Source: an uncultured Lentisphaerota bacterium
GTDB lineage: Bacteria > Verrucomicrobiota > Lentisphaeria > Oligosphaerales > CAITYL01
Length of the DNA: 38,130 nt
Assembly (NCBI GenBank): GCA_903894975.1
Contig: CAITSE010000023.1
Coordinates: 1 to 38,130, forward strand
Direction: 5' to 3'
Part shown: one piece after another, positions 5,378-34,555 of the stretch
Numbering within the stretch: position 1 is the stretch's first letter
Layout: each line of letters starts with the position of its first letter
The notes under the pieces: model-generated
The model's database searches: none
What the model saw: the letters and a program-made list of their open reading frames with translations, nothing else
What the model was told of the DNA's origin: nothing
Translations under genes and position numbers: made by a program

Positions 5378-7489
5378 TCAGGGCGCCGCGGGAGCGACCA
5401 AACCGCAATCCCGAAGCACGAGCACGCCCTGACGCGTAATTTCATCAAAGGTGCCGGCAACGGTGACGGGCTGTCTACGAATCTGGGAGGTATTGAGAAC
5501 CGCGCGGATGTCTTCAAATTCCTTGCGGCCGAAAACACATTTGACGTTGCCAAAAAGAACCATCACCGAGACGGGATCATACCCGCCGGTGACCGGCGTG
5601 CCGATGACCGTGAGCTGGCGTTTGGCATAAGCCTTGGCCGCAGCCTCGGGAGCGAGAGGACGCAACCGTTCCAGCAACGCCTCCGGGGACAGCGGCTCGT
5701 TAGCGGGGATCAAATCGACCACCAGCGGCCTGACCGTGTCAGCCGGCACTGGCGGTGGCTTCGGCAAGGGGGTCGGCGGGACAATCTCGGGACCGAGCTC
5801 CGCCGTGGCCTTGAGCCGGGCCTCTTCCAAGTTGGCCCGGGATTGCGCCTCTTTGGAGCGTTCCAGCGGCAACGGGGCACTCCCCTGGATCTGCGGCTTC
5901 AGGTACCGTTCCAGACGCTTTGGCGTTTCCGCCAAAACCATGTCGCCGAACGAGTTCTGCTCAATGAGCATGCCAGAGCGGGTGGTCTTGTCGATAAGCG
6001 TGACCTCGGTATCCGGCACCCATAGGCTGAACACCATTTTGCGTTTTTCATTGCGAACGGTCTTGACATGCTTGCTTTCGCGCGGGCCCAACGGATGAAC
6101 TACCTTGATATCGTGCTCGCCTTCCAAGATGCCGCGCAGGATCAGAGGCTTGGACTCGCGGCCGGGTTCGCTACCGGCGGCTTCGGTGCGCCCCACCGGC
6201 ATGTCGTCCACCAGCACGTCGCACCCCGCCGGGGTGGTCACCACTTCCAGCGAGCCGATGCAACTGCGCAGGGGGATGGCCACGGTTTCGGGCTGGTTAT
6301 CGCGGACATTGGCACGGAATTTTTCGACATCATAGCCGGGCAGGGAGAGTTTAAATTCATACTCGCCGGCGGGAAGTTCGTCGAGAAACATGGGGGTTTG
6401 CCCAAGGAGCCGCGGCCCGAGCGAGAGGACGGCGCCGACGGGGTTCGAGGTGATGAGCAGGGTAGCGGACTTCTGGCGGAGCTGGAAAGGCTTGTCCGGC
6501 ACCAGCGCGGGATAATGGATCTGGCGACTGAGATCTTCATAACCGCGCAACGAAAAGGTGAGCGCATGTCGGCCGGGGGGCAGGTTTTTCAGGTAGGCAG
6601 GGGTGACCCCCTGGTCGGCGCCATCAAGCAGGACCTTGGCGCCGTGCGGCTCGGAGTCGACTAGGATAAGCAGAGGCGAGGGAGGTTCGGCGACACCCTT
6701 GGTGGCGGGCTCGGCGACGGCAGCCGCAACCGCGCCTGTACCGGTTTGGAGCGTGGCCGTTCCCGTCGGAGCGGCGGTGGCTCCGGACGAGGTTGGCGCA
6801 ACGGTTGGAGTGGCAACTGCCGGCGCCGCCGGGCCGCCGAACATCGCCATCGGCGCGCCGCTGCCGGGACCGGCTGGAACGGGCGGCTTGGCGATGACCG
6901 GCGCCAACGCCACGGCCGGAACGGAGGGGGCGGACGCAGCGGCCGGCTTTCCCGGGAAGAACGTGAACCAGACCAACGAGCCGGCCAATCCCAGCAAGAC
7001 CGTGAACAGGGCCGCCAGAAACAGCACGGTCAGGCTGACAGATTTACGGGCGGGTTGACCCGGGGCTGGCGCCGCGGCCGCGGCGCTCGCCGCCGGAACC
7101 GGAGGCGGCGGCGCGGAAGCGGGAGACTTGGCCGGCGAAGTGGCCGGGGAATGGGCGGGAGCATGACCGGGAAGCTTGGCCTCGGGCACAATCTCGCCGG
7201 AATCAGTGGCCAGAAGAATACATTCACCGATGCCAATGCGGTCACCGTTGTGGATTTCTTCGCGCGTGGTTCCCTGAAGCTTGCGGCCGTTGATGCGGAT
7301 GCCGTTGGTGCTCTGCATGTCTTCCGCGGACCATTTGTCCTTGTCGCAAGTCAACTTGCAGTGAGTGCGGGAGACTCCGTCTTCGGTCAGGATTAAGTCG
7401 TTGCCTTTTTCCCGGCCGATGATGAACGAACTGCCTTTAAGTTCGATAATTCTGCCTTGATCATGACCGGTCAATATGCGTAATTTCAT
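5378..7489 (-). CDS. FHA-TM-PEGA-OB-fold multidomain membrane protein
   Basis: A 703-aa protein with clear modular structure. Residues 1-95 are an FHA phosphothreonine-binding domain (IIGREKGNDLIL, GVSRTHCKL, STNGIRING). A Pro/Ala linker leads to one transmembrane helix (about 151-178, SLTVLFLAALFTVLLGLAG). After a second low-complexity linker come three PEGA beta-domains (about 272-338, 342-408, 412-488), with SEPHGAKVLLDG and LPPGRHALTFSLRGY in the first. The C terminus (about 618-697) looks like a tRNA_anti-like OB fold (VKCVFGRKEFEDI then VTVAGTFDEI). The layout implies a cytoplasmic FHA sensing phosphorylation, joined through the membrane to an external region that may bind the envelope. 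The partner kinase is not in the window. The ATG has only a weak GGGTG ribosome site. The gene is upstream of comEC on the same strand. Confidence 0.85.
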   Translation of the reverse strand: MKLRILTGHDQGRIIELKGSSFIIGREKGNDLILTEDGVSRTHCKLTCDKDKWSAEDMQSTNGIRINGRKLQGTTREEIHNGDRIGIGECILLATDSGEIVPEAKLPGHAPAHSPATSPAKSPASAPPPPVPAASAAAAAPAPGQPARKSVSLTVLFLAALFTVLLGLAGSLVWFTFFPGKPAAASAPSVPAVALAPVIAKPPVPAGPGSGAPMAMFGGPAAPAVATPTVAPTSSGATAAPTGTATLQTGTGAVAAAVAEPATKGVAEPPSPLLILVDSEPHGAKVLLDGADQGVTPAYLKNLPPGRHALTFSLRGYEDLSRQIHYPALVPDKPFQLRQKSATLLITSNPVGAVLSLGPRLLGQTPMFLDELPAGEYEFKLSLPGYDVEKFRANVRDNQPETVAIPLRSCIGSLEVVTTPAGCDVLVDDMPVGRTEAAGSEPGRESKPLILRGILEGEHDIKVVHPLGPRESKHVKTVRNEKRKMVFSLWVPDTEVTLIDKTTRSGMLIEQNSFGDMVLAETPKRLERYLKPQIQGSAPLPLERSKEAQSRANLEEARLKATAELGPEIVPPTPLPKPPPVPADTVRPLVVDLIPANEPLSPEALLERLRPLAPEAAAKAYAKRQLTVIGTPVTGGYDPVSVMVLFGNVKCVFGRKEFEDIRAVLNTSQIRRQPVTVAGTFDEITRQGVLVLRDCGLVAPAAP

Positions 7490-13571: not shown

Positions 13572-14582
13572 TCATCCCTGATCGCCGTGGCTTTGCAGGC
13601 TTGCCACCGCCTGATCCCACCAGGAACCGGGCGTCTGTTCCTGAGCCCGCCCGCGCTCACTGGCATGGACAAACCCGCTATAGGACAACTCCAGCTCCCG
13701 CGCCATCTCTCCCGGACGCAACCGGCCGCGGCAATGCCGTCGCACCAAGGCCGCCAGCAAATCCCGCGCCGCCCGGTCCCGACACCGCCGCACCTTCAAC
13801 ACTTCCTTGGGAATCCCGGTTACCCGAGCCGCCGCCGCGACCACCTCCGCCAAGGAAAACCCGCCTTGACGCATCTGCAGCTCGGGCTGCTCCCGCCCGG
13901 CCGCTGGCCGCCGTAAAAGAAATTCCCGCCGAACCCAGTCCACAAAACCCTCGCTCCCCAGAATGCTCCGCGCCTCGGCCGCCGCCGCCGGATCGCAAAT
14001 CTCCTTCATCAACCCCTCCTCCACAAACAACCGGTACCCCTGCATCTGCTTGCGCAACGTGGCCCCGAACCCCTTCAAAATCCCCGCCATCCGCAACCAT
14101 TCCGGTGTTTTCGCCAACCCGATCAACGCTGGGAAACTCGACCATTTGAACTCCGCCAGCACCCGCCGCCGTTCTTCCATCGGCAAATTCTTGACCGACT
14201 GCACCCGCACCGGGTTCAGATGGATATAACGCGACAACGTATCGTAGTACCCCCCCCCCTCCACCAATTGCGCCTTGAACCGCCCCTGGAAGATATGCCC
14301 TGAACTCTTGTCACGCCGGTTCACAAACACCGTGAACGATGTCAGCAGGCTCTGCATGAACCGGCTCAGGTTCGCCTGCCGCGTCCGCAGGAACAGGTGA
14401 AAATGATTCGGCATCAGACAGTAACTCAACACCTCCACCTCGAAATCCTCCGCAAACCGCCCCAACCGCTCCAAAAACAGCCGGTAGTCCGCCCTAGTCC
14501 GGAACACCCGTTCCCGCCGGTTCCCCCGGTTCATCACATGGTACAGCGCACCCGGATATTCAACTCGCAATGGCCTGGCCAT
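13572..14582 (-). CDS. REP-associated tyrosine transposase (RAYT / TnpA-REP, Y1_Tnp family)
   Basis: A 336-aa single-strand DNA transposase relative. The HUH-type motif is NHFHLFLR (His60, His62) and the catalytic tyrosine lies in SRYIHLNPVR (about Tyr119). The opening MARPLRVEYPGALYHVMNRGN and the GHIFQGRFKAQLV segment are typical of RAYTs, which excise and copy short palindromic repeats rather than a complete IS. Beyond about residue 230 there is an extra helical domain (FSLAEVVAAAARVTGIP ... LSYSGFVHASERG) resembling the DnaA/HTH-like C-terminal extension of long RAYTs. It looks intact, with GGATGGAG just before the ATG. Copies of a 33-bp repeat flank it on both sides, the expected relation between a RAYT and its substrate. 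It shares codon use with the chromosome, which suggests a resident gene. Confidence 0.88.
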   Translation of the reverse strand: MARPLRVEYPGALYHVMNRGNRRERVFRTRADYRLFLERLGRFAEDFEVEVLSYCLMPNHFHLFLRTRQANLSRFMQSLLTSFTVFVNRRDKSSGHIFQGRFKAQLVEGGGYYDTLSRYIHLNPVRVQSVKNLPMEERRRVLAEFKWSSFPALIGLAKTPEWLRMAGILKGFGATLRKQMQGYRLFVEEGLMKEICDPAAAAEARSILGSEGFVDWVRREFLLRRPAAGREQPELQMRQGGFSLAEVVAAAARVTGIPKEVLKVRRCRDRAARDLLAALVRRHCRGRLRPGEMARELELSYSGFVHASERGRAQEQTPGSWWDQAVASLQSHGDQG

Positions 14583-15772: not shown

Positions 15773-15861
15773 TCTCCCGGTTTTGTTCCAGGCCTGACGC
15801 GAGGGTGACGTATGAGCGCCCGGTGACAAGGCCGGGATTGTTTCGCAAGAGGAGGTCGGCC

Positions 15862-18800
15862 GTGGGAGAGAATCTGGTGTCGGCGGGAAAGCCACAACTG
15901 GCCCTGGAACTGGTTCGCCAGACCGTTCATGGCACGTCTCTTTCCTTCGCAAAAATCGAGCCACTGCTGCGAAAGCTCCTGCCGCGGCCGGAATGGGAAG
16001 AAGGCGGCACGCTTTACGCCCTCCAGCGCCTGCTTCTGGAACAGGGCGTGGCGGAAGCCCGTGACCTGGCGGCGCAGATTCACCTCGGCATTCTGAAAGA
16101 CGCCGTCCAGGCCGGCCGCGCCCGCCGCTGTGATCCGGCCCATCCCTGGCGCACCCTGGCCGCGGCCACCCTGGCGCACCTGCCGCCGGACCTGCCCGTC
16201 GACTGGCGCGATGATGCCGGGGCGCTCGCGATCCTCACCCGCGCCGTCCAACTTGAACGCGACCGCGGGTTTCTGCTCACTACTACGCCGGATCTGTATC
16301 CTCCCATCCGCAGTCTCTCCGAGGAATGCCAGGGCCAGCGTCAGCGTCTACGGACTTTTTCTTTTTTCTGGAATCTAATCCCTCCCAACTTGTTGTGGAA
16401 AGATTTCACGCTGCCTTCCGGAACCGCGCTGCCCGCCGGCGCCGATACCGACCCGGCCGCGGCCGACGCCACCCGCCTGGCGGACCTGGCCGCGGCCGTC
16501 ACCGGATCGCAGCCTTCCACGCCCCAGGCTAAAACCGCCCTGGCCTGCCTGCTCGCCTGGCCGGACCGCGCCGCCGCGGAATACATCCTGCGCCTCGGCT
16601 CCGCCCTGCCCGCGGTACAAGCGTATGCCATGCACGCCCTCGCCCTCCGCACCGGCAATGACTATGCCACTTGGGGCGAATGGGCGGACTATCTGCGGCG
16701 GACCATGGCGGAACGCAACTGGCAGCAGGCCACCGCCAGCCGCCTGCTGAGCGAAAACCGTGCCGAGCTCCGCCTGCTCTGGTACACCTGTCAGACGCCG
16801 CAGCCCGACCCCGTTCTCCTGGAGGCGCTGACCGCCGCCGTGGCAGAATCCGCGCACCGGACCGTCCAGCCCGCGGATTTTGTCCGGCGCCGGGAAGCGG
16901 TGCTGACGCCCGCGGACGTCGCCCGGCTCCAGGGTCTTCCCGTCCCGCCAACTGCGCCCGCCCCGCCCCGGCCAGCCGGCGGCCTCTCCATTCCGCCGGG
17001 GCTTGGCCTTCCTCCGGTATTGACGGAACCCATTGCGCCGCAGTCAGCCGCAGCACGCCTTTCGCCAATGTCGCCGCCGATCCTCCCGCGCATCATCCCT
17101 ACCCCGGCGCCGGAGCCGGAAAAACCGGCCGCCCCGCCGGAGCCGTCGCTTTGGGAAGAACACATCCAACCGTTCCTGACGGCGAACTGGTACATCCTGG
17201 CCGGGCTCCTGATGGTCGTCGCCGGCGCCTCGCTGCTGGCCTATTTCACCTGGGACAAAAGCCTGCTCGTGCGCTACCTCTTCCTGCCGGTACTCCTGGC
17301 CGCGTTCACCGGGGGGTTGGCCGAACTGGGGCTGCGCCTGACCCGGCGGCATCCGGACCTGCGCGCCACCGGCACCTTCCTCCTCGGCGGCGCGATCTGC
17401 CTGCTGCCAGCGAATTTCATGGTGCTCTGCCGCGCCGGCGACGATCCGCAGGCCGCGCGTCTGCTCCTCCCGGCCCTCGCCCTCTACGCCGCGGCGGCCG
17501 GCGCCGGCCTCTGGCGCTGGTGCGGTGAAGTCCGCAGAGAACTGCGCCCCCTGCTCGCCCTGCCGCTACTGGCGGTGAATCTCCTGGCGGTGCTCGGCGA
17601 CATGCCCGGCGTCCGCGATGCCGCCGCCGGTCACCGTTCCACCCTGGTCCCCTTCACCATCACCGCCGCCGTGCTCCTGGTGCTCGCCGTCGCGAACCGT
17701 TTCCTCCGGCTCGTGCTCACCCGGGAACTGCTTGACGCCAAATGTGTTCCCTGGTTTTTCGGCATCACTCTGGCAGCCACCACTCTCCAAGTCTCCGCCT
17801 GGCGGCATTTCCATCTCGGCATCACCCCGCACCCGCGGGACTATGCCCTGGCCGTGATCCTGGCCGGCGCCGCGCTCCTGCGCTGGGAACGGCGGGCCGG
17901 CGAACTCCGCAACACTGGCGCTGCCTACGGCGGCGAATCCTTCCTCGGCTATGCCGCCCTGTTCCTCGGCATCCTCATGGCCGCCGGCAACCAGCACCTC
18001 CGCGTCATCGCACTGCTTCTGGCGGGCGGGATCTGGCTGGTCCAGGCCCCGCGCCGCCCGGGCATCGTCCACTACTGGATCGGCGTCACCCTCTGCCTGC
18101 TCGGCGGCGCCGCCACCGGCATGCTTGAAACCTTCCCGAAACGCCGCGAACTCAACCTCCTGCCCGAACTCGGTTTCGCCCTGGCCCTGGCCGCCGGCGC
18201 CGCCCGCGCCCTGGCCGGACGCTTCCGTGAACCGCGTCTGCGCCAGGTCGCCCTGGAAATCCAGCCGCCGATCCTGCTCGTCACCGCCCTGGTCGCCGTC
18301 CTCTCCCAATACCACCTGCGCTCCGCGCCGTGGCAGACCGGGCTCATCCTCCTGGCCGTCGCCGGATTCTTCGCCGTCCGCGCCACCGTCACCGCGCGCC
18401 GGGACTGGCTCCACATCGCCGCCGTCAGCGCCGGGCTGGCCCTGCCCTACCTCGGCTGCGCCGACATGACGGAGTACCGCTTCGACGAAAACACCCTGGG
18501 CCTCGGCTTCGGCCTGCTCGCCGCCGTCTGGCTCGCCGCCGCGCGGTTCCTGCCTTCCGCCACCTGGCGCCGGACCGGCGGCCGGATCGTCACCGCTTTC
18601 GGCCTCGCCGGCATCGCCGGGCTGCTCCTGCGGTTGCTGCTGGCCTGTCGGCCCGAAATCGGCGGCGCGGAACTCGCTGGCGGCGTGCTGCTTGCCGTCG
18701 CGCTCGGCGTCACCGCCTGGCGGGCACGCTCGCGGCTTCCGGCCATGTCCGCCGCCGGCACGCTCGCCGTGATCCTGCCCCTGTTCCGCGTCCCCGCCGC

Positions 18801-21800
18801 CGCCGCGCCGGAACGCTGGCACCACGGCACCGGCCTGGTTTCCGCTGCCGTGGCCTTCCTCCTGACCCTGGTCTGCTTCCAATTCCGCCGCGCCCTGGCC
18901 GAACCCGTGCCCGCCATCCCCGCGCCGGCCCCGGATCCCGCCGCCCCAACCCGGCCCGGCGCCGTCTCCGCGGCCGCCCTGGTCACCATCCCGATCCTTT
19001 CCGCGGCGTTCTGGCTGTGCGGGAAAGCGCTCATCCTTCAGCTTCAAAATCACCACGGTCAGATTCCGTTTATCGCCGCCATCGCCTTGGTCTCCGCCAC
19101 CTTTTATGCCGCGGCGATTTATTTCCGCCAACGCCCGGCCGGAAGCGGCCTGTTCCATCTCTCCTGGCCGCTGCTCGCCGCCGGCATCGCCATGGGCTGC
19201 GATCAAGCCGGGTGCGAGGGGCTGGCCATGCTCGAATACCCGCTGCTTTGGACCGGTGTCGCGTTCACCCTCCTCACCGGAGTGGAAGCCCTTGCCGCAC
19301 GGCGGCAGGACTGGGCGGAAACGCTCCTCGCCCGGCCCCGGCGCGAGATCCTCGCCTGCGGCAGCATTCTGGTCACAGTAATCATCACCATGCTGGTCAT
19401 CCAACTTTCGGAATCCTACACCCGGCACACCGGCCTGCAAGCGCTGGCCATCTTCACCGCCGCCCAGCTCGTCTGGCATGCCCTGCGGACCTCGCAACGC
19501 CGGTTTGGCGCCGTACTTTTCGTGCTCACAACCGCCTGGCTGTTCGCCGCTCCGGACGCGGCCGAACGGAATTTCGGCGCGCTGCCGCTGTTCCTTTTGG
19601 CCGTCCTGACGGCGGACCTCGCCCTGGAAGGAGTCCCGGGGCTCCGCGCCTTCCTGCGTCCTCTCCAGGCCCCGTTCATCGCCGGCGTCACGCTTCTCGG
19701 CGCCTTTCTAGCCTTCCTGGCGGCCGGCCTTCCCGACTCCCTGATCCACGCCGTAGGGACCCAGGACCTGCTCAACCTCACCATTCCTCCGGCCGAAACC
19801 GGCATGCTCCTCGCCGCCATGCTCCTGATCGCCCGCACCCAGAACTGCGCGTTCTTTGTCCTCCCGGCGGCGGCACTCGGCTACCAACTTCTCCTGCTTC
19901 CCTGCACCCTGAACGAACTGTTCCGGCCGTGGCGGCTGGCGGACTTCGCCCTTGTCCTCTGCCTGCTGCCCTTCGCCGGCGGCATGCTGCGCACCTGCTG
20001 TCCGCGACTGCTGCAAGGGCCGACGCCGCAAGTGCCGGCCGCCGAAACCCTGCCCCAGGCGCCCTGGCTCACCATCCCGGCGCTCGGTCTCGCCCTGGGC
20101 GCCGCCTTCGGCCAAATGGCGCTGTCCTCGGCCGGAATCACCACCGACACCCGCGGCATGCAGACCCTCGCGCCGTTCGCCGCCGTCCTCGCCTTCGCCC
20201 TGGCCGGACTGTATTGGCGCCGGGGCGGGTTCTGGACTGTGGCAGCCGGACTGCTGCCCGCGGCCAACCTCTTCGCCATCGCCGTGCTCCGCGGCCGGGA
20301 ACTGCTGGACGCCCAGATGACGGAGGTCCACATCCTCTGCCTGGCCCTGGTCCTCACTCTGGCCGAGTTCGCCCTGGCCCGGAAACTCGTACTGAAAGCC
20401 GCGCTCACCACTGCCGCACACCGGCTGCACCTGGGCTGCGCCGCGCTGGCGGGAACGATCCTGCTCCTGATCGGCGTCAACTACCTGGCTAACCCGGACC
20501 TGACGACGATCCCGACCATCCGCTTCCTGACCTCGGGCCTGCTCGCCCTGGCCGCCGGACTCTATTTCCGCGGCGCCGCGCGCCGGCCGGAAAATCTGCC
20601 GACCCGGGACGGGCTCTGGCTGGAGAGCTTCTGGCACGCCGCCCTCGCCCTCGCCCTCTGGTGCGGCGCGTTAATGATCCCGGCCTTGCGGACCCCGCAC
20701 GCCGCGCTCTATGCGCTGGCGCTTCCGGCCCTGGCCTGCTGGGTGGCGGCGGAATTCTCCCGCCGAACCGCGCCGGCCGCCGCCCCGCCGCCCCGCCTCA
20801 TTCTCGCGGAACGCTTCGCCACCAGCGCCACCGTGTTCGCCGGACTCGTCCTGATCTTGTACGGCTCCCGCCTGCCCTTCCAGATGCTGCTCTTCCCGAA
20901 CCTCCCGCCCGACCTGCATCTCTACCACACCGGCGCGCCCGCCGCCGTGCTCATGGGCCTGATCCTGATCCGCATCCGCGGCCTCGGCGGCGCGACCTGG
21001 ACGGCGTTCACGGGCGGCCTCGCGCTCATGGCCGGCACGTACTTCAGCGTGACCTGGCTGCCCGGACTCTCGCCCTTTGACTTCCCCATGGCCGGCGCCT
21101 GGACCGCCCTTGGCGCGGCGCACCTGCTGATTTTGCTGAGCTACCAGCAGTCGCCGCTGCGCAGTTTCATCCAGGATCTTGGCGGCATTGGCGCGGAAGA
21201 ATGGCACGCGCACCGGCGGCAGTGGGGGCTGTTCCTGACCGCCGCGGTGCATGTCGCCGTCCTTTCCGGCCTGCTCCAGGACTATTCCACGCACAGCCTG
21301 GAGACCACGCCGCTCCTGCTGGCGCTCGCCACCGTCCTCCTCCACCAGGCCGTGATCGGGGCGCCCTGGGCCAAGGCCTATTATGTCCTCGCCGGGCTCG
21401 AAATTCTGGCCGCCCTGCACCTGGACTTCTTCTTGCCGGCCGGCGCCCCCGGCCTGATCCCGGCCAAACAAGTGGTCTGGTACCTGCTCACGCCATGGCT
21501 GGCCGCGGCGCTCCTGTGGTCCCGCCTCAAAGAATGGGTGCCTGCCCGGGCCGTCTGGAACAGCGCCGGAGGCCTGGCCCTGCTCTGCGCCGCGCACCTC
21601 GTTTATCACGGCCCGAGAACCGGCGTCGGCCTGCTCATCGCCCTCCTCATGCTGCTGGCGGCGCTGCGGACGCCGCGGCCGGAAGACGCCCCGCCGCCGC
21701 ACCCCCTGCCCGCGCTGCTGCTGGGCGCGCCGCTGTGGTTCGTCTATTTCGGCACACTCCGGCTCACCGGCGACCACGCCGACGGCTGGCGTCCGCTGCT

Positions 21801-22980
21801 CGCCGGCGCCGCCGCGCTGCTGGCCACCGGCATGCTCGCACGCTTCGCCGACGCGCTGCACGACAGGCTCCGCCAACCCGGCCGGCCGGAGGATTCCGCC
21901 CAGCCCGCTCCGGACCGTTTCCTCGCGCACGAAGTTCTCGATCTCTGCCGGCGCCGGACCGAGGCCGTCGCCCGCACCCTGCTGTGGCTGGCCTTCGCCA
22001 TCCTCTCTCTTGTCACCAGTCCTCGCAATGACAGCCTCGACATCATGCTGGCGCTCGCATTCGTCTGGGGCGTCGGTGCTGTGGCCTGGTACCGCGAAGG
22101 CCGGTTCCGCGACGGCGTCCTGCCCTACGCCGCCAGCCTGCTCAGCCTGGCCGGCGCCTGGATCGTCCTCCGGCGGTTGCTATTCCGCCACTTCGATTTC
22201 TGGACCTACGAGTACGACATCTGGCTTGGCCTCGGCGCCTCCATCGCCTTCAGCGCCGCCAAGCGCCTGGTCAGGCATCAGCAGCCGGGGCTCAGCCGCA
22301 CCATCACCGGCACCGTCTGGCTCCTGCCCGTCCTGCAATGCCTCTGGCTGCTGACCAACCACATGAGCGCCGACCTCACCCTGCTCGTGATCGGCATTCA
22401 GGCCATGCTCTTCGCCTGGCAGGGCGGCGGCAAGCGTGATTCCCCGTACAATGCCGTGGCCATGCTCGGCTTCGTCAGCTTCATCTGCCTGCTCTTCTGG
22501 GCCAAGCTCGACCTGCGCTGCATCCAGGCCTATGTCCTGCCCGCCGGATTTGGCGTGCTCGGCCTGCTTTGGCTGTTCGGCTCCCATGTCCCGCCACCCC
22601 TGCGCCACGCCATCCGCCTGGTCACCGTCCTCGGCATGCTCGGAAGCTGCGGCTATTATGCGCTGCTGGACAACCGCTACCCCGTCAGCTTCCACCTGAC
22701 CATGCTCCTGCTGTGCCTGATCGTGATGGCTTTCGGCCCGCTCCTGCGCGTCCGGCTCTACCTCGGCCTCGGCTTCGCCGGCTTTGCCACCGACCTGATC
22801 GCGTTGGTAGTCAAGGAGTTCCGGACTCTTGACCGTTCCCTGCAGATGATGGGCATCGGCCTGCTCCTGCTCCTGCTCGGCGTCGCCGTGGTCGGCGGCG
22901 CCATCTTCTACAAAACCAACCGCGACGCCCTCCGCGCCCGCTGCGCCAGTCTCGGCGCCAGATTCGGCGTCTGGGAATAA
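15862..22980 (+). CDS. Giant polytopic membrane protein (2372 aa), DUF2339-like
   Basis: One uninterrupted reading frame of 2372 codons. Residues 1 to about 360 form a soluble, helical N-terminal region (LVSAGKPQLALELVRQTVHG). About 370-430 is a Pro/Ala-rich linker (PAPPRPAGG, PAPEPEKPAAPPEP). From about 440 to the end there are by eye several dozen hydrophobic helices with short Arg- or Pro-containing loops, beginning WYILAGLLMVVAGASLLAYF and ending with LLLLLGVAVVGGAIFY and a short basic tail. The first membrane segments resemble DUF2339/DUF2157 proteins, which are usually well under half this length. The start is GTG with AAGAGGAGG 6 nt upstream; the ORF track's GTG at 15805 has no comparable site. 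Base composition matches the neighbours. No catalytic motif, sugar-binding loop or ATPase is visible. Function unknown; roles in envelope lipid or glycan handling are possible but unsupported. Confidence 0.8.
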   Translation: MGENLVSAGKPQLALELVRQTVHGTSLSFAKIEPLLRKLLPRPEWEEGGTLYALQRLLLEQGVAEARDLAAQIHLGILKDAVQAGRARRCDPAHPWRTLAAATLAHLPPDLPVDWRDDAGALAILTRAVQLERDRGFLLTTTPDLYPPIRSLSEECQGQRQRLRTFSFFWNLIPPNLLWKDFTLPSGTALPAGADTDPAAADATRLADLAAAVTGSQPSTPQAKTALACLLAWPDRAAAEYILRLGSALPAVQAYAMHALALRTGNDYATWGEWADYLRRTMAERNWQQATASRLLSENRAELRLLWYTCQTPQPDPVLLEALTAAVAESAHRTVQPADFVRRREAVLTPADVARLQGLPVPPTAPAPPRPAGGLSIPPGLGLPPVLTEPIAPQSAAARLSPMSPPILPRIIPTPAPEPEKPAAPPEPSLWEEHIQPFLTANWYILAGLLMVVAGASLLAYFTWDKSLLVRYLFLPVLLAAFTGGLAELGLRLTRRHPDLRATGTFLLGGAICLLPANFMVLCRAGDDPQAARLLLPALALYAAAAGAGLWRWCGEVRRELRPLLALPLLAVNLLAVLGDMPGVRDAAAGHRSTLVPFTITAAVLLVLAVANRFLRLVLTRELLDAKCVPWFFGITLAATTLQVSAWRHFHLGITPHPRDYALAVILAGAALLRWERRAGELRNTGAAYGGESFLGYAALFLGILMAAGNQHLRVIALLLAGGIWLVQAPRRPGIVHYWIGVTLCLLGGAATGMLETFPKRRELNLLPELGFALALAAGAARALAGRFREPRLRQVALEIQPPILLVTALVAVLSQYHLRSAPWQTGLILLAVAGFFAVRATVTARRDWLHIAAVSAGLALPYLGCADMTEYRFDENTLGLGFGLLAAVWLAAARFLPSATWRRTGGRIVTAFGLAGIAGLLLRLLLACRPEIGGAELAGGVLLAVALGVTAWRARSRLPAMSAAGTLAVILPLFRVPAAAAPERWHHGTGLVSAAVAFLLTLVCFQFRRALAEPVPAIPAPAPDPAAPTRPGAVSAAALVTIPILSAAFWLCGKALILQLQNHHGQIPFIAAIALVSATFYAAAIYFRQRPAGSGLFHLSWPLLAAGIAMGCDQAGCEGLAMLEYPLLWTGVAFTLLTGVEALAARRQDWAETLLARPRREILACGSILVTVIITMLVIQLSESYTRHTGLQALAIFTAAQLVWHALRTSQRRFGAVLFVLTTAWLFAAPDAAERNFGALPLFLLAVLTADLALEGVPGLRAFLRPLQAPFIAGVTLLGAFLAFLAAGLPDSLIHAVGTQDLLNLTIPPAETGMLLAAMLLIARTQNCAFFVLPAAALGYQLLLLPCTLNELFRPWRLADFALVLCLLPFAGGMLRTCCPRLLQGPTPQVPAAETLPQAPWLTIPALGLALGAAFGQMALSSAGITTDTRGMQTLAPFAAVLAFALAGLYWRRGGFWTVAAGLLPAANLFAIAVLRGRELLDAQMTEVHILCLALVLTLAEFALARKLVLKAALTTAAHRLHLGCAALAGTILLLIGVNYLANPDLTTIPTIRFLTSGLLALAAGLYFRGAARRPENLPTRDGLWLESFWHAALALALWCGALMIPALRTPHAALYALALPALACWVAAEFSRRTAPAAAPPPRLILAERFATSATVFAGLVLILYGSRLPFQMLLFPNLPPDLHLYHTGAPAAVLMGLILIRIRGLGGATWTAFTGGLALMAGTYFSVTWLPGLSPFDFPMAGAWTALGAAHLLILLSYQQSPLRSFIQDLGGIGAEEWHAHRRQWGLFLTAAVHVAVLSGLLQDYSTHSLETTPLLLALATVLLHQAVIGAPWAKAYYVLAGLEILAALHLDFFLPAGAPGLIPAKQVVWYLLTPWLAAALLWSRLKEWVPARAVWNSAGGLALLCAAHLVYHGPRTGVGLLIALLMLLAALRTPRPEDAPPPHPLPALLLGAPLWFVYFGTLRLTGDHADGWRPLLAGAAALLATGMLARFADALHDRLRQPGRPEDSAQPAPDRFLAHEVLDLCRRRTEAVARTLLWLAFAILSLVTSPRNDSLDIMLALAFVWGVGAVAWYREGRFRDGVLPYAASLLSLAGAWIVLRRLLFRHFDFWTYEYDIWLGLGASIAFSAAKRLVRHQQPGLSRTITGTVWLLPVLQCLWLLTNHMSADLTLLVIGIQAMLFAWQGGGKRDSPYNAVAMLGFVSFICLLFWAKLDLRCIQAYVLPAGFGVLGLLWLFGSHVPPPLRHAIRLVTVLGMLGSCGYYALLDNRYPVSFHLTMLLLCLIVMAFGPLLRVRLYLGLGFAGFATDLIALVVKEFRTLDRSLQMMGIGLLLLLLGVAVVGGAIFYKTNRDALRARCASLGARFGVWE

Positions 22981-30397: not shown

Positions 30398-33300
30398 ATG
30401 ATGATGGTGTTTATCCGGTTTTTCCGGCCGCTCGTAACCCTATCAAAAAAACACCCCATCGCCGTCAAAGTTTTCTTGTTTTGTCTTTTCCTGTCTCCTT
30501 CTGCCGCCATGGCAGTAGATGAGTTTTCCTACGATTGGCGACTCGCCAAGGAGTTGCAGGAACACCAGGCCTTGGCGGATTATGCCGGCCGGCAGATTCA
30601 GATCATGCTGCTCAACCCGCGGTATGCGGAACACAAAGAGCCGCTCCAGCTTGAACAGGCCCGGATCCTTTACAACACCGGCCGTTCCGCCCAGGCTGAC
30701 GCCATCGTCGCCCAGATCCCCTCCGCCAGCCCGGCCGGATTGAATGCCCGGCTCCTCCAGGCGCGCGCCGCGTTCTCGCGCAAAGATCTGGCCACCGCCA
30801 AAAAATTGTATGCGGACTATTTCGCTAAGCAGGACAAGCCGGTCGACGACAGCGAAGACGCCATCCGCGAGTTCCGCCAGGCCGTGGTGATCTACTCCAA
30901 GGTGTTCGAGCAGGAAGGCAATGCCGTACAGTCCGGCAAAATCCTCGACCTGCTGGCCAAAATTCCCAAGGACGGCGACGACGCCATCAGCGAACGCGAA
31001 CTGCGTTTCCGTAAAGCCAAACAGGTGCTGGACACGCTGGAGCAGTCGTCCCTCGATGGCAAGCCCGTGGACAGCAAGGTCGTGGATGGGGTTCGGACGG
31101 ACTTGGAGAAGTTGCAATGGAGCACGGACATGATCATGGCCCGGTCCATGGTTGAAGTCGCCCGCGCCTATTATCTACAGAAAAATTATGACCAGGCGCT
31201 CAAGACCATCAAGAACAGCAAAGGCGTCTTTGTCGACTTCGACCAGGCCCTGAAGGCGGAAAAGAAGTCCGACCTTTCTCCTCTCCCCGGCGCCTGGCTG
31301 TATTTTGCCAAAGCCCAGATCGCCCTTCTCCCCCAGCTTAAGGCCAAAGATCCGGCCGCGGCGGAAAAGATGCTGAGCGACGTCATCCAACTGCTCCAGA
31401 AAATCCGCGAGCAGTATCCCAAATCCGAATTTGCCGTGCCCGCCACCACCGAATACTCCCGGGCCCGGGCCCTCACCAAATCCCTTTTCAACAAAGAGCC
31501 GGCCGGCGCGACGGCCGCCGCCGGCGGCGACGCCCGGACTCCCGCGGTGGACGAGGGCGCCCTGATGGTCAAAATCCAGGAAGCCACCCAATTTGCCAGC
31601 GCCAAAAAACCCGCCGAGGCCGCCGACCTTTATCTGGCAGCACTCCAGGGCCTGGGCCGCCACAATCTCCCCGCCACAATCGAAGCCGGCGCCGGGCTGG
31701 CGGCGACTTATACGGCGTTAAACAAACCCCTGCTCGCCCAGGCCGCGGTCCTCTATCTTTCCGATATCGCCCCCGAAGACGATGCCGTGCAACAGGCGCT
31801 TTTCCAAACCGGGCAGGCCCTGGCCATCGGCGCCAAAACCATTCCCGACATTACCAAACGGGAGGCCCAGATTGACGACGGCATGATGCTGTTTGAGCGG
31901 CTGGTTCAGATCGCGCCGAGGCATCCGCGCGCCCCGGACTTGGCCTATGCCGTGGCGGAAAACCTCTACGGCCGGGCGTCCGGCCTGGGCAAGCAAACCC
32001 AGGGCATGCCCGAAGGCCCCGCCAAAGAACAGCTCAAAAACCGCGCCCGGGAAGCCTACCTCGCCGCCGTGCCCAAATACCTGGCGGTCACCCAGCTTTT
32101 CCCCGCCCATGAACGGGCAGTCCGTTCCTGGTACAAGCTGGGCTGGATCTATTATTCCACCGACAACCCGGAAAAGGCGGCGGCGGCCTTCCTGAAGTAT
32201 GTCGCGGAAGAAAGCAATCCCGACCCAAAGATCGGCGAGGATCGGCTGGAGGCGAAATTCCGCGCCGCCGACCAGATGCTCTTCAACAACCGGCCCGAAG
32301 AAGCCCGCGTCCAGCTCCAGGAACTGCTGGTCTGGCTGGAACCGGCCGAGGCGGCCACCCGCAACCTGGATCTCAATTCCGCCGTGGCCAAACGGGTGAA
32401 GGAAGACGCCACCGCGTACCTGGCCTGGTCCTATGATTTGCAGGGCGAGGGGCTCCGGCCCAAGATCGCCGGCCTGGAAAACCGGATCGCCGAAGGGCGC
32501 GCCCGGGCCGAGGAAATTGACGCGCGGCGCGCCCAGATCACCCGCTCTCTGGACAATTTTGCCGCCGAACAGGACAAGGCGCGCAAAGAAGAGACCGCCC
32601 TGGAAAAAGCCCTGACCAGCGAACCAGGTGTCACCGAACGAGCCAAAATTTTCGCCGAGGAAACTCAGGGCAAAAGCGGACCGGAACTGGAAATCGCCAA
32701 ACGGATTGCCGAGGACAAAGTCCAGAAAATCGCCAGTGAAGCCGTAAAAAACGAACAGACCCGCCTGCGCGGTGAGGCCGGGGAGCTGAAGGAAGAACGC
32801 GAAACCCTCTTCCGCCTCAAGGACGAGCAGGACGGCCGGCTCAAGCTTCTGACCACGCGGGCCGCCACGGCCAAACCGGAAGCCGCCGACGCCGAAGCCC
32901 GTCTGGCGGATGCCGACAGCAAATGGACCTCAGCCCAAAAGGCCGTGACGGAATGGATCGCGGCGCTGGCCAAGGCCCAGACCGAAAACACCAAACTGGA
33001 TCAGGACACGGAATCCTTGAAGGCCGCGGTGGCCCAGGCCAAAGACACCGACACCCGCGACGAAGCCCGCCGCGCCTGGCAGCAGGCCATGGGCCGGCTC
33101 CGGGAAGTTCAAAAACAGCTGCGCGACCTGCGCGATCAGGAAGTGCGCATGCTCAAACTCCAGAAAACGGACTTGCCGGAACTGCAGCAGAAAAAAGCGC
33201 AGGCCGCCACTGCCGCCACCGCCGCCCGCAGCCGGGCGACCGGCCTGGAAGCCGAACAACGGCTGGCCGAAGCTGAAGGCTCCCTGATCCGGGCCCGCCT

Positions 33301-34555
33301 GGAAGCCGGCAACCGGGCGGAGGCGCGCAACGCCGCCGCCGTGAATGTGCTCAAGAACAAAGGCATCTCCGGCATTCCCAACGACCCGGAATATGCCGCC
33401 GCCACCAAAGCGGAAATCGACGCGCGCCGCAAGACTTTGGCCGGCCGCGAGGCCATGGACACGGTCCGCACCGCCGACCTCAGAAAAGAAGACGCCGCCA
33501 TCGTCACGGAGCGGGCGGAACTGGGGAAAACCCTGGAGGCGATGCAAGCCGAACGCCAGCCCCAGCAAAAACGTATCATCGAACTCAAGACAGAAGCGGA
33601 AACGCGGTTCTGCGCCTACCTCGCCGCCTATCCGCAGGGCAAACAGATCCCGGACGTCCTGTCGCGCCGGGGTACCATTTTGTTGGAACTCAAACGGATT
33701 GACGATTCCAAGCGCGTCCTTACCGAACTTTCCACCAAATTTCCGGAGAGCAAAGCCGCCAAGCAAGCCTATTTCAACATGGGCCGGGCCCTGTTCGAGA
33801 CGGGTGACACCGCCGCCGCCGCCGAGGCGTTTGCCAAAGCGCTGACTACCGCTCGCGACCTTCCCGCCGGCAACCTCACCTATATCGTCGAAAAAATGCT
33901 GTCCGGAGACCAACCCCAACTGGCCCGGGACGCCGCGTTGGAACTGCTGGCCCGGGCCGGCAACCCGGCTCACCCGGATCAGGCTTTCCTCGCCAAGTTC
34001 AAGGAACAGATTTCCGTCCAAGCCGCCGAGGCCCTGCTCGCCACCGGCGAAGACCAGGACCGGGCCCGCGCGGTGGAAATCCTCGCCGCCGTACTCAAAC
34101 AGAACGATCGAACCGCCTATTTCTTCCAAATCAAGTTTCTGTTAGCCCGGGCCAAGCGCGAAATGAAGCCGCCAGACCTTGACGGGGCGGTTCAGGATCT
34201 AGCCGAAGTCACGCAGTACGCCACCGATCCCTTGTCCAAGGCCCGGGCCTTCTGTGAAACGGGCGACTTGCTCGTCCGTTCCGCCGGTAACGACCCAGCC
34301 AAGCTCAAGCCGGCCGCCGGACGCTACATGCAGGTCGTGCTCATGGCCGATCCCGCCAATGTCGAACTCCGTCCCTGGCTAGAGCGTGCGCTAGTTTCCG
34401 GCGCCGGCATCTTTGCCAAGATCGGCGACACTGCCGCCTTGGAGAAATTTAAGAAGCAATACGCGGAAACCTTCCCCAAGGGCGCCAAGGCCGGTGAAAT
34501 GCGGGGCCTCGGCGCCACGCCGGCTCCAGCCGCCGGCGGCGCAGGGAAGAAATGA
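30398..34555 (+). CDS. Large secreted TPR / coiled-coil protein
   Basis: A 1385-aa protein with an N-terminal signal peptide (AVKVFLFCLFLSPSAAMAVDE, cut probably after AMA). Residues about 45-650 are helical TPR-like repeats (for example AVRSWYKLGWIYYSTDNPEKAAAAF). About 680-1060 is a long charged coiled coil rich in K, E, A and R (RAEEIDARRAQITRSLDNF, VAQAKDTDTRDEARRAWQ). About 1080-1350 returns to TPR repeats (AYFNMGRALFETGDTAAAAEAF), ending in a Gly/Ala tail. It is probably periplasmic and may span the gap between membranes as a scaffold. GGAG lies 8 nt before the first of three adjacent ATG codons. It is the first gene of a same-strand cluster with a second TPR protein, ExbB and two ExbDs, which implies a structural or adaptor role. 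No enzymatic motif is visible. Confidence 0.82.
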   Translation: MMMVFIRFFRPLVTLSKKHPIAVKVFLFCLFLSPSAAMAVDEFSYDWRLAKELQEHQALADYAGRQIQIMLLNPRYAEHKEPLQLEQARILYNTGRSAQADAIVAQIPSASPAGLNARLLQARAAFSRKDLATAKKLYADYFAKQDKPVDDSEDAIREFRQAVVIYSKVFEQEGNAVQSGKILDLLAKIPKDGDDAISERELRFRKAKQVLDTLEQSSLDGKPVDSKVVDGVRTDLEKLQWSTDMIMARSMVEVARAYYLQKNYDQALKTIKNSKGVFVDFDQALKAEKKSDLSPLPGAWLYFAKAQIALLPQLKAKDPAAAEKMLSDVIQLLQKIREQYPKSEFAVPATTEYSRARALTKSLFNKEPAGATAAAGGDARTPAVDEGALMVKIQEATQFASAKKPAEAADLYLAALQGLGRHNLPATIEAGAGLAATYTALNKPLLAQAAVLYLSDIAPEDDAVQQALFQTGQALAIGAKTIPDITKREAQIDDGMMLFERLVQIAPRHPRAPDLAYAVAENLYGRASGLGKQTQGMPEGPAKEQLKNRAREAYLAAVPKYLAVTQLFPAHERAVRSWYKLGWIYYSTDNPEKAAAAFLKYVAEESNPDPKIGEDRLEAKFRAADQMLFNNRPEEARVQLQELLVWLEPAEAATRNLDLNSAVAKRVKEDATAYLAWSYDLQGEGLRPKIAGLENRIAEGRARAEEIDARRAQITRSLDNFAAEQDKARKEETALEKALTSEPGVTERAKIFAEETQGKSGPELEIAKRIAEDKVQKIASEAVKNEQTRLRGEAGELKEERETLFRLKDEQDGRLKLLTTRAATAKPEAADAEARLADADSKWTSAQKAVTEWIAALAKAQTENTKLDQDTESLKAAVAQAKDTDTRDEARRAWQQAMGRLREVQKQLRDLRDQEVRMLKLQKTDLPELQQKKAQAATAATAARSRATGLEAEQRLAEAEGSLIRARLEAGNRAEARNAAAVNVLKNKGISGIPNDPEYAAATKAEIDARRKTLAGREAMDTVRTADLRKEDAAIVTERAELGKTLEAMQAERQPQQKRIIELKTEAETRFCAYLAAYPQGKQIPDVLSRRGTILLELKRIDDSKRVLTELSTKFPESKAAKQAYFNMGRALFETGDTAAAAEAFAKALTTARDLPAGNLTYIVEKMLSGDQPQLARDAALELLARAGNPAHPDQAFLAKFKEQISVQAAEALLATGEDQDRARAVEILAAVLKQNDRTAYFFQIKFLLARAKREMKPPDLDGAVQDLAEVTQYATDPLSKARAFCETGDLLVRSAGNDPAKLKPAAGRYMQVVLMADPANVELRPWLERALVSGAGIFAKIGDTAALEKFKKQYAETFPKGAKAGEMRGLGATPAPAAGGAGKK

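Follow-up and report, generated by a model that had tools for sequence, protein, structure and literature searches.

An unnamed family of giant bacterial membrane proteins with about 64 predicted transmembrane helices, represented in a Lentisphaerota genome

The window, i.e., the whole stretch of 38,130 nucleotides of an uncultured Lentisphaerota bacterium analysed here, carries at 15862-22980 (+ strand) a gene for a real, selected inner-membrane protein of 2372 amino acids. In the structural and topological models the protein very probably comprises a cytoplasmic helical domain, a flexible Pro-rich tether, and some 64 transmembrane helices in one continuous array; their number is the striking part of the finding. 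The gene begins with GTG and is a single intact frame without an internal stop, as the initial annotation had stated. The strong ribosome-binding site mentioned there is the Shine-Dalgarno-like AGGAGG at 15850-15855 (+), six bases upstream of the GTG at 15862. A longer product starting from the in-frame GTG at 15805 is possible, but that codon lacks an AGGAGG-type site. The host genome of 4.46 Mb is incomplete (89% complete), and its class also includes Lentisphaera marina.

The soluble N-terminal domain and the Pro-rich linker of the initial annotation are both borne out by AlphaFold2 (AF2). The former (residues 1-360, 15862-16941, +) is predicted to be cytoplasmic and all-helical (pLDDT ca. 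75-96 over residues 51-360), and the latter (approximately residues 364-420, 16951-17121, +) to be disordered (pLDDT <50), its length and sequence differing among the homologs. R263, situated in an RFG motif of the N-terminal domain, is invariant, and weak HEAT_2 matches found in this domain in 2 of 27 members leave it possibly alpha-solenoid-like.

The membrane part spans roughly residues 430-2350 (AF2 and the topology model) and contains 64 predicted transmembrane helices (residues 443-2349, 17188-22908, +), located on the basis of hydropathy, AF2 and the alternation of K/R-rich and K/R-poor loops. Alignment-averaged profile hydropathy gives 62 helices, with 59 to 67 in each of 23 homologs. 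AF2, run on the two halves of the protein separately (alignments of 24 and 27 sequences, mean pLDDT 80.4 and 82.1, pTM 0.50 and 0.55), gives 63 hydrophobic helices and one weak or borderline helix. The count is thus not a modest one, and the exceptional number of membrane passes postulated at the outset is upheld by all three approaches. In the 64-helix model K+R amount to 99.8 on the inside loops versus 36.4 on the outside loops per average sequence, with a Mann-Whitney p of ca. 1e-9 that is only a guide, since these very sequences had served in part to fit the list of helices. K/R-rich and K/R-poor loops alternate strictly over the entire chain, with no out-of-phase block, and thus both termini are predicted to be cytoplasmic.

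The gene is old but patchy in its distribution. The survey of the phylum suggested in the initial annotation found it in 10 of 198 genomes of the class and, with a relative of the window's protein as the query, in 7 of 241 genomes of a phylum sample. Matches were also obtained in 9 of 99 related genomes, the own genome included; one of them (in G079) was rejected as a serine/threonine-kinase-like protein. A scan of 84,980 species yielded 23 loci, distributed over Lentisphaerae, Verrucomicrobia, Planctomycetes, and single metagenome-assembled genomes (MAGs) labelled Deltaproteobacteria and Elusimicrobia. The nearest relatives, 57-62% identical, come from MAGs labelled Verrucomicrobia or unclassified bacteria, and an intact homolog is present in the cultured Lentisphaera marina. 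Near-complete homologous frames measure 2050-2470 amino acids.

That the frame is maintained, as originally claimed, follows from the retention of full length by the homologs and from a dN/dS of ca. 0.25-0.31 in the homolog pairs in which it is measurable, indicative of purifying selection. One Lentisphaera-genus genome (G060:C1:103970-109716; L007, L010) carries the gene as two frames split by a stretch without similarity, so there it is either dispensable or misassembled. This interrupted copy is what speaks for regarding the giant frame as an artefact, an assembly-caused fusion, or a decaying gene. Equal length in about 20 independent genomes, purifying selection, and invariant residues spread along the chain make such a reading practically negligible, and the sequence comparison with the homologs already refutes it.

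The invariant columns are concentrated at residues 430-530, 1528-1860, and 2100-2300. The first group falls within the membrane-entry module (residues 429-531, TM1-TM3, 17146-17454, +), delineated by its conservation and by its match to an Acaryochloris protein described below, with the consensus WxxHIxPFLxENWYxxAGxxMVxAGSSLLAYYTWDKxWLxRY...LLPxNF. The variable middle of the array (residues 1228-1527, 19543-20442, +) is nearly devoid of invariant columns. A candidate functional site is the histidine region H1689-H1916 (20926-21609, +), in which H1689, H1828, and H1853 are invariant in 29/29 homologs, H1754 and H1912 in 28/29, and H1916 is mostly conserved. The first five lie within 224 residues, a clustering with p of ca. 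0.013 that was noticed post hoc. The topology model puts H1689 in a periplasmic loop, H1853 and H1912 near the periplasmic face, and H1754 and H1828 closer to the cytoplasmic side. Further towards the C-terminus, in a predicted periplasmic loop, is the W2114...EYDxW motif (residues 2114-2121, 22201-22224, +). Its W2114, Y2118, and D2119, like R263, R924, Y1541, and R1554, are invariant where present.

The protein of the window has no Pfam match and no PDB match by sequence, its family members have no significant Pfam match, and no Pfam or NCBIfam model exceeds its cut-off for the family. The possibility that homology would place it in a known large family was not realised. A link to the NCBIfam family NF047321 (SCO7613_CTERM) is supported for the C-terminal module (approximately residues 2172-2341, 22375-22884, +) via the homologs. 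When slices comprising the last ca. 293 residues of 10 homologs were compared with this model, eight matched it at one fixed place, mostly at profile positions ca. 3-168 of 188, with E-values from 3e-10 to 0.43 and a best score of 40.1 bits, below the curated cut-off of 45. The window's own, divergent C-terminal copy gave no match and is tied to the model only by way of its homologs. None of 289 Verrucomicrobiota genomes reaches the cut-off. Weak matches appeared also in 3 of 14 control genomes, so that single weak matches mean little; what counts in this sequence comparison is the constancy of position and the highest scores.

A search of the phylum with the SCO7613_CTERM model reached a Verrucomicrobiota protein (G226) of 1654 amino acids and ca. 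51 helices, the last 145 residues of which match the last 145 of the giant protein (BLAST E 4e-6). This protein, encoded at L114 602-5566, is unannotated and shares only the C-terminal module with the giant. Its C-terminus led in turn to WP_235112337.1, a hypothetical plasmid protein of Acaryochloris sp. Moss Beach with 1267 amino acids and ca. 35 helices. Residues 89-188 of the latter match residues 423-522 of the giant (hhalign probability 86%, 28% identity over 95 columns), and a second match, colinear with that at the entry, covers giant residues 1714-2371 (583 columns, hhalign 61%). The reversed giant profile gave at most 0.5%, with control scores of half or less. Giant residues 523-1713 correspond to only ca. 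470 residues in the Acaryochloris protein. The gene is intact on plasmid pMB04 (L115 3842-7645), and the copy on pMB07 (L116 3841-7645, 98% identity) is annotated as two genes; a HicAB toxin-antitoxin pair adjoins it on both plasmids.

The giant thus appears to belong, as an enlarged member, to an unnamed superfamily with relatives of ca. 35 and ca. 51 helices. The simplest reading of the alignments is that the membrane entry and the C-terminal third are retained and the middle differs by dozens of helices, and the shorter relatives suggest that such proteins gain or lose whole helices in mid-chain. That a continuous solenoid or ring of ca. 64 helices with a conserved histidine site, its size varying in the middle (35, 51, 64) between a fixed entry and exit, might represent a new class of membrane machine is a speculative and rather doubtful proposition.

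As regards internal duplications, for which the initial annotation had proposed a self-alignment, none was found beyond controls. Self-comparison scored 37-49 (no more than 39 when thirds of the array were compared with one another), whereas reversed profiles scored 21-35 and the giant versus forward DUF2157 ca. 40. A Foldseek search with the AF2 half models, made against PDB and viral structures, returned only alpha-solenoids of the TPR/HEAT type and designed toroids, and no convincing membrane-protein or solved transporter fold. The TM-scores were ca. 0.1-0.2 relative to the query, hence the resemblance is generic; it is compatible with a succession of helical hairpins along the chain and is too weak for a fold assignment.

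No conserved neighbour gene was found beside the giant in 24 loci, and apparent neighbour clusters were rejected as antisense frames, so the gene appears to stand alone. Its neighbours in the window (guanylate kinase, pilB-like ATPases, pilT, pilC, an O-antigen-ligase-like protein, and a transposase) do not recur beside homologs. Several of the other genes in the window are worth mentioning in their own right. The segment 24074-30145 encodes two adjacent ATPases of the PilB/GspE type, both bearing an MshEN domain, and after them PilT and PilC, and is a pilus/type II secretion cluster with a doubled assembly ATPase. A gene (30398-34555) flanked by PilC and by a TolQ/ExbB plus ExbD pair encodes a protein of 1385 amino acids in which hardly anything apart from C-terminal TPRs is recognised. 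On the minus strand, a protein of 703 amino acids with an N-terminal FHA and two PEGA domains (5378-7489) adjoins a ComEC-like competence protein, and a relative of REP-associated tyrosine (Y1) transposases, with its 336 amino acids longer than the model (13572-14582), is encoded just upstream of the giant.

The protein had been described as resembling DUF2339 proteins, and of this the look remains, i.e., the anatomy, and the membership does not. The DUF2339 model (PF10101) has no match in seven full-length members up to E 10, and none up to E 0.1 in slices taken from the N-terminus (27) and the C-terminus (24). Profile-profile comparison aligned no more than 109 columns, located at the first hairpin, at 76-90% with the linker included, against 85% for the reversed DUF2339 control. 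Slices freed of the linker scored 24-27, and reversed controls 16-29. The GGYxTP motif of DUF2339 is absent from the giant consensus, and the invariant columns of the two alignments differ. Membership is accordingly unsupported by hmmscan, profile-profile comparison with reversed controls, and slices alike. The same profile method detects the homology of DUF2157 with DUF2339 (hhalign 89%), which served as a positive control; these two are related at both ends (hhalign 89% and 56%), yet they are separate Pfam families. A relation of the giant to DUF2157 (PF09925) was dismissed for want of convincing profile similarity. A DUF2339-like match in the own genome (C374) turned out to be a histidine kinase. 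Within the class, DUF2339 proteins occur in 1 of 10 giant-bearing genomes versus 88 of 188 others (Fisher p 0.025), and this complementarity would fit a replacement of one by the other, with the caveat that MAGs are incomplete. In other phyla they are present in 8 of 19 giant-bearing genomes (pooled p 0.16), and mutual exclusion as a general rule was abandoned, its significance being lost once these phyla are added.

A possible function is suggested by Arc3A, a DUF2339 protein of 35 predicted helices without obvious enzymatic residues, which protects Pseudomonas against the lysophospholipids that the toxin Tle3 generates and prevents their build-up (PMC8926400). By analogy, the giant array might bind, flip, or buffer lipids within the bilayer, the cell would thereby tolerate lipid damage or envelope stress, and a signal could perhaps be passed through the cytoplasmic domain. 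Such handling of membrane lipids is put forward tentatively; taken jointly with the anatomy, it deserves somewhat more credence, short of an even chance. The many-helix anatomy of Arc3A and the within-class rarity of DUF2339 in giant-bearing genomes argue for it. Against it stand the failure of profile comparison to demonstrate a sequence relation to DUF2339, the loss of the complementarity in the other phyla, the lack of a conserved partner gene, the restriction of the AF2 models to halves with a pTM of no more than 0.50-0.55, and the histidine cluster, which points to a chemistry that Arc3A is not reported to have. The same cluster may be read as the mark of a membrane enzyme, in which the histidines between TM41 and TM49, perhaps together with W...YDxW, would bind a metal or a haem or act as catalytic residues in the membrane, the remainder being a lipid-facing scaffold. 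The near-complete conservation of five histidines within 224 residues and the invariant W2114, Y2118, and D2119 in a predicted periplasmic loop are consistent with this. However, the Acaryochloris relative lacks both the histidine pattern and EYD, the clustering is modest in significance and was noticed after the fact, and neither the giant nor its homologs match an enzyme family, so that an enzyme is considered unlikely.

Two further explanations rank below these. The protein could be a structural scaffold shaping or stiffening the inner membrane, or organising envelope machinery such as that of the adjoining type IV pilus genes, as its large size, its cytoplasmic domain on a tether, and the resemblance to nothing but solenoids and toroids would allow. 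The pilus genes, however, are not common neighbours of the homologs, the low TM-scores detract from that resemblance, and the conserved histidines and the Y-D motif would be left unexplained, which renders a scaffold rather improbable. It could also be an ordinary transporter or flippase that has grown through the doubling of a permease unit, and its polytopic nature with strict in/out alternation agrees with such an origin. Yet there is no duplication above controls, no match to a permease family, and no similarity to solved transporter folds, and this origin is regarded as quite improbable. Lipid handling is thus retained as the working proposal. The family itself is amenable to experiment, given the intact copy in the cultured L. 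marina and the relative of 35 helices encoded on a plasmid of Acaryochloris.

With its ca. 64 passes, this conserved single chain has nearly double the 35 helices of Arc3A (PMC8926400) and more than the 42 transmembrane helices predicted in the 39,678-residue giant of Omnitrophota (PMC10066038). Such a number puts to the test the membrane-insertion pathway on very long arrays, as well as the purpose of such arrays. Moreover, the superfamily would bring together giant membrane proteins of SCO7613-like, cyanobacterial, and verrucomicrobial type that are so far scattered and unannotated.

In comparison with known systems, Arc3A and other DUF2339 proteins share with the giant an N-terminal extension, a Pro-rich linker, very many helices, and a similar-looking entry hairpin, but the giant has nearly twice the helices and other conserved residues. 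It also has no conserved neighbour, unlike DUF2339, which in its Gram-negative members has a neighbouring arc3B-like gene. DUF2157 proteins are likewise polytopic, with a first hairpin that looks similar. The SCO7613 proteins resemble the giant over the C-terminal ca. 170 residues, nearly the whole profile, and only this module is common to both; SCO7613 is complemented by a 3.7-kb fragment, and its deletion reduces stored polyhydroxyalkanoate (PMC8313934). The Acaryochloris protein WP_235112337.1 has, like the giant, a soluble N-terminus, the membrane-entry motif, and the W near the C-terminal end, but it has ca. 35 helices instead of 64, without the long middle and the histidine cluster. The giant represents a new family without a name, of the known kind of giant polytopic helical arrays.
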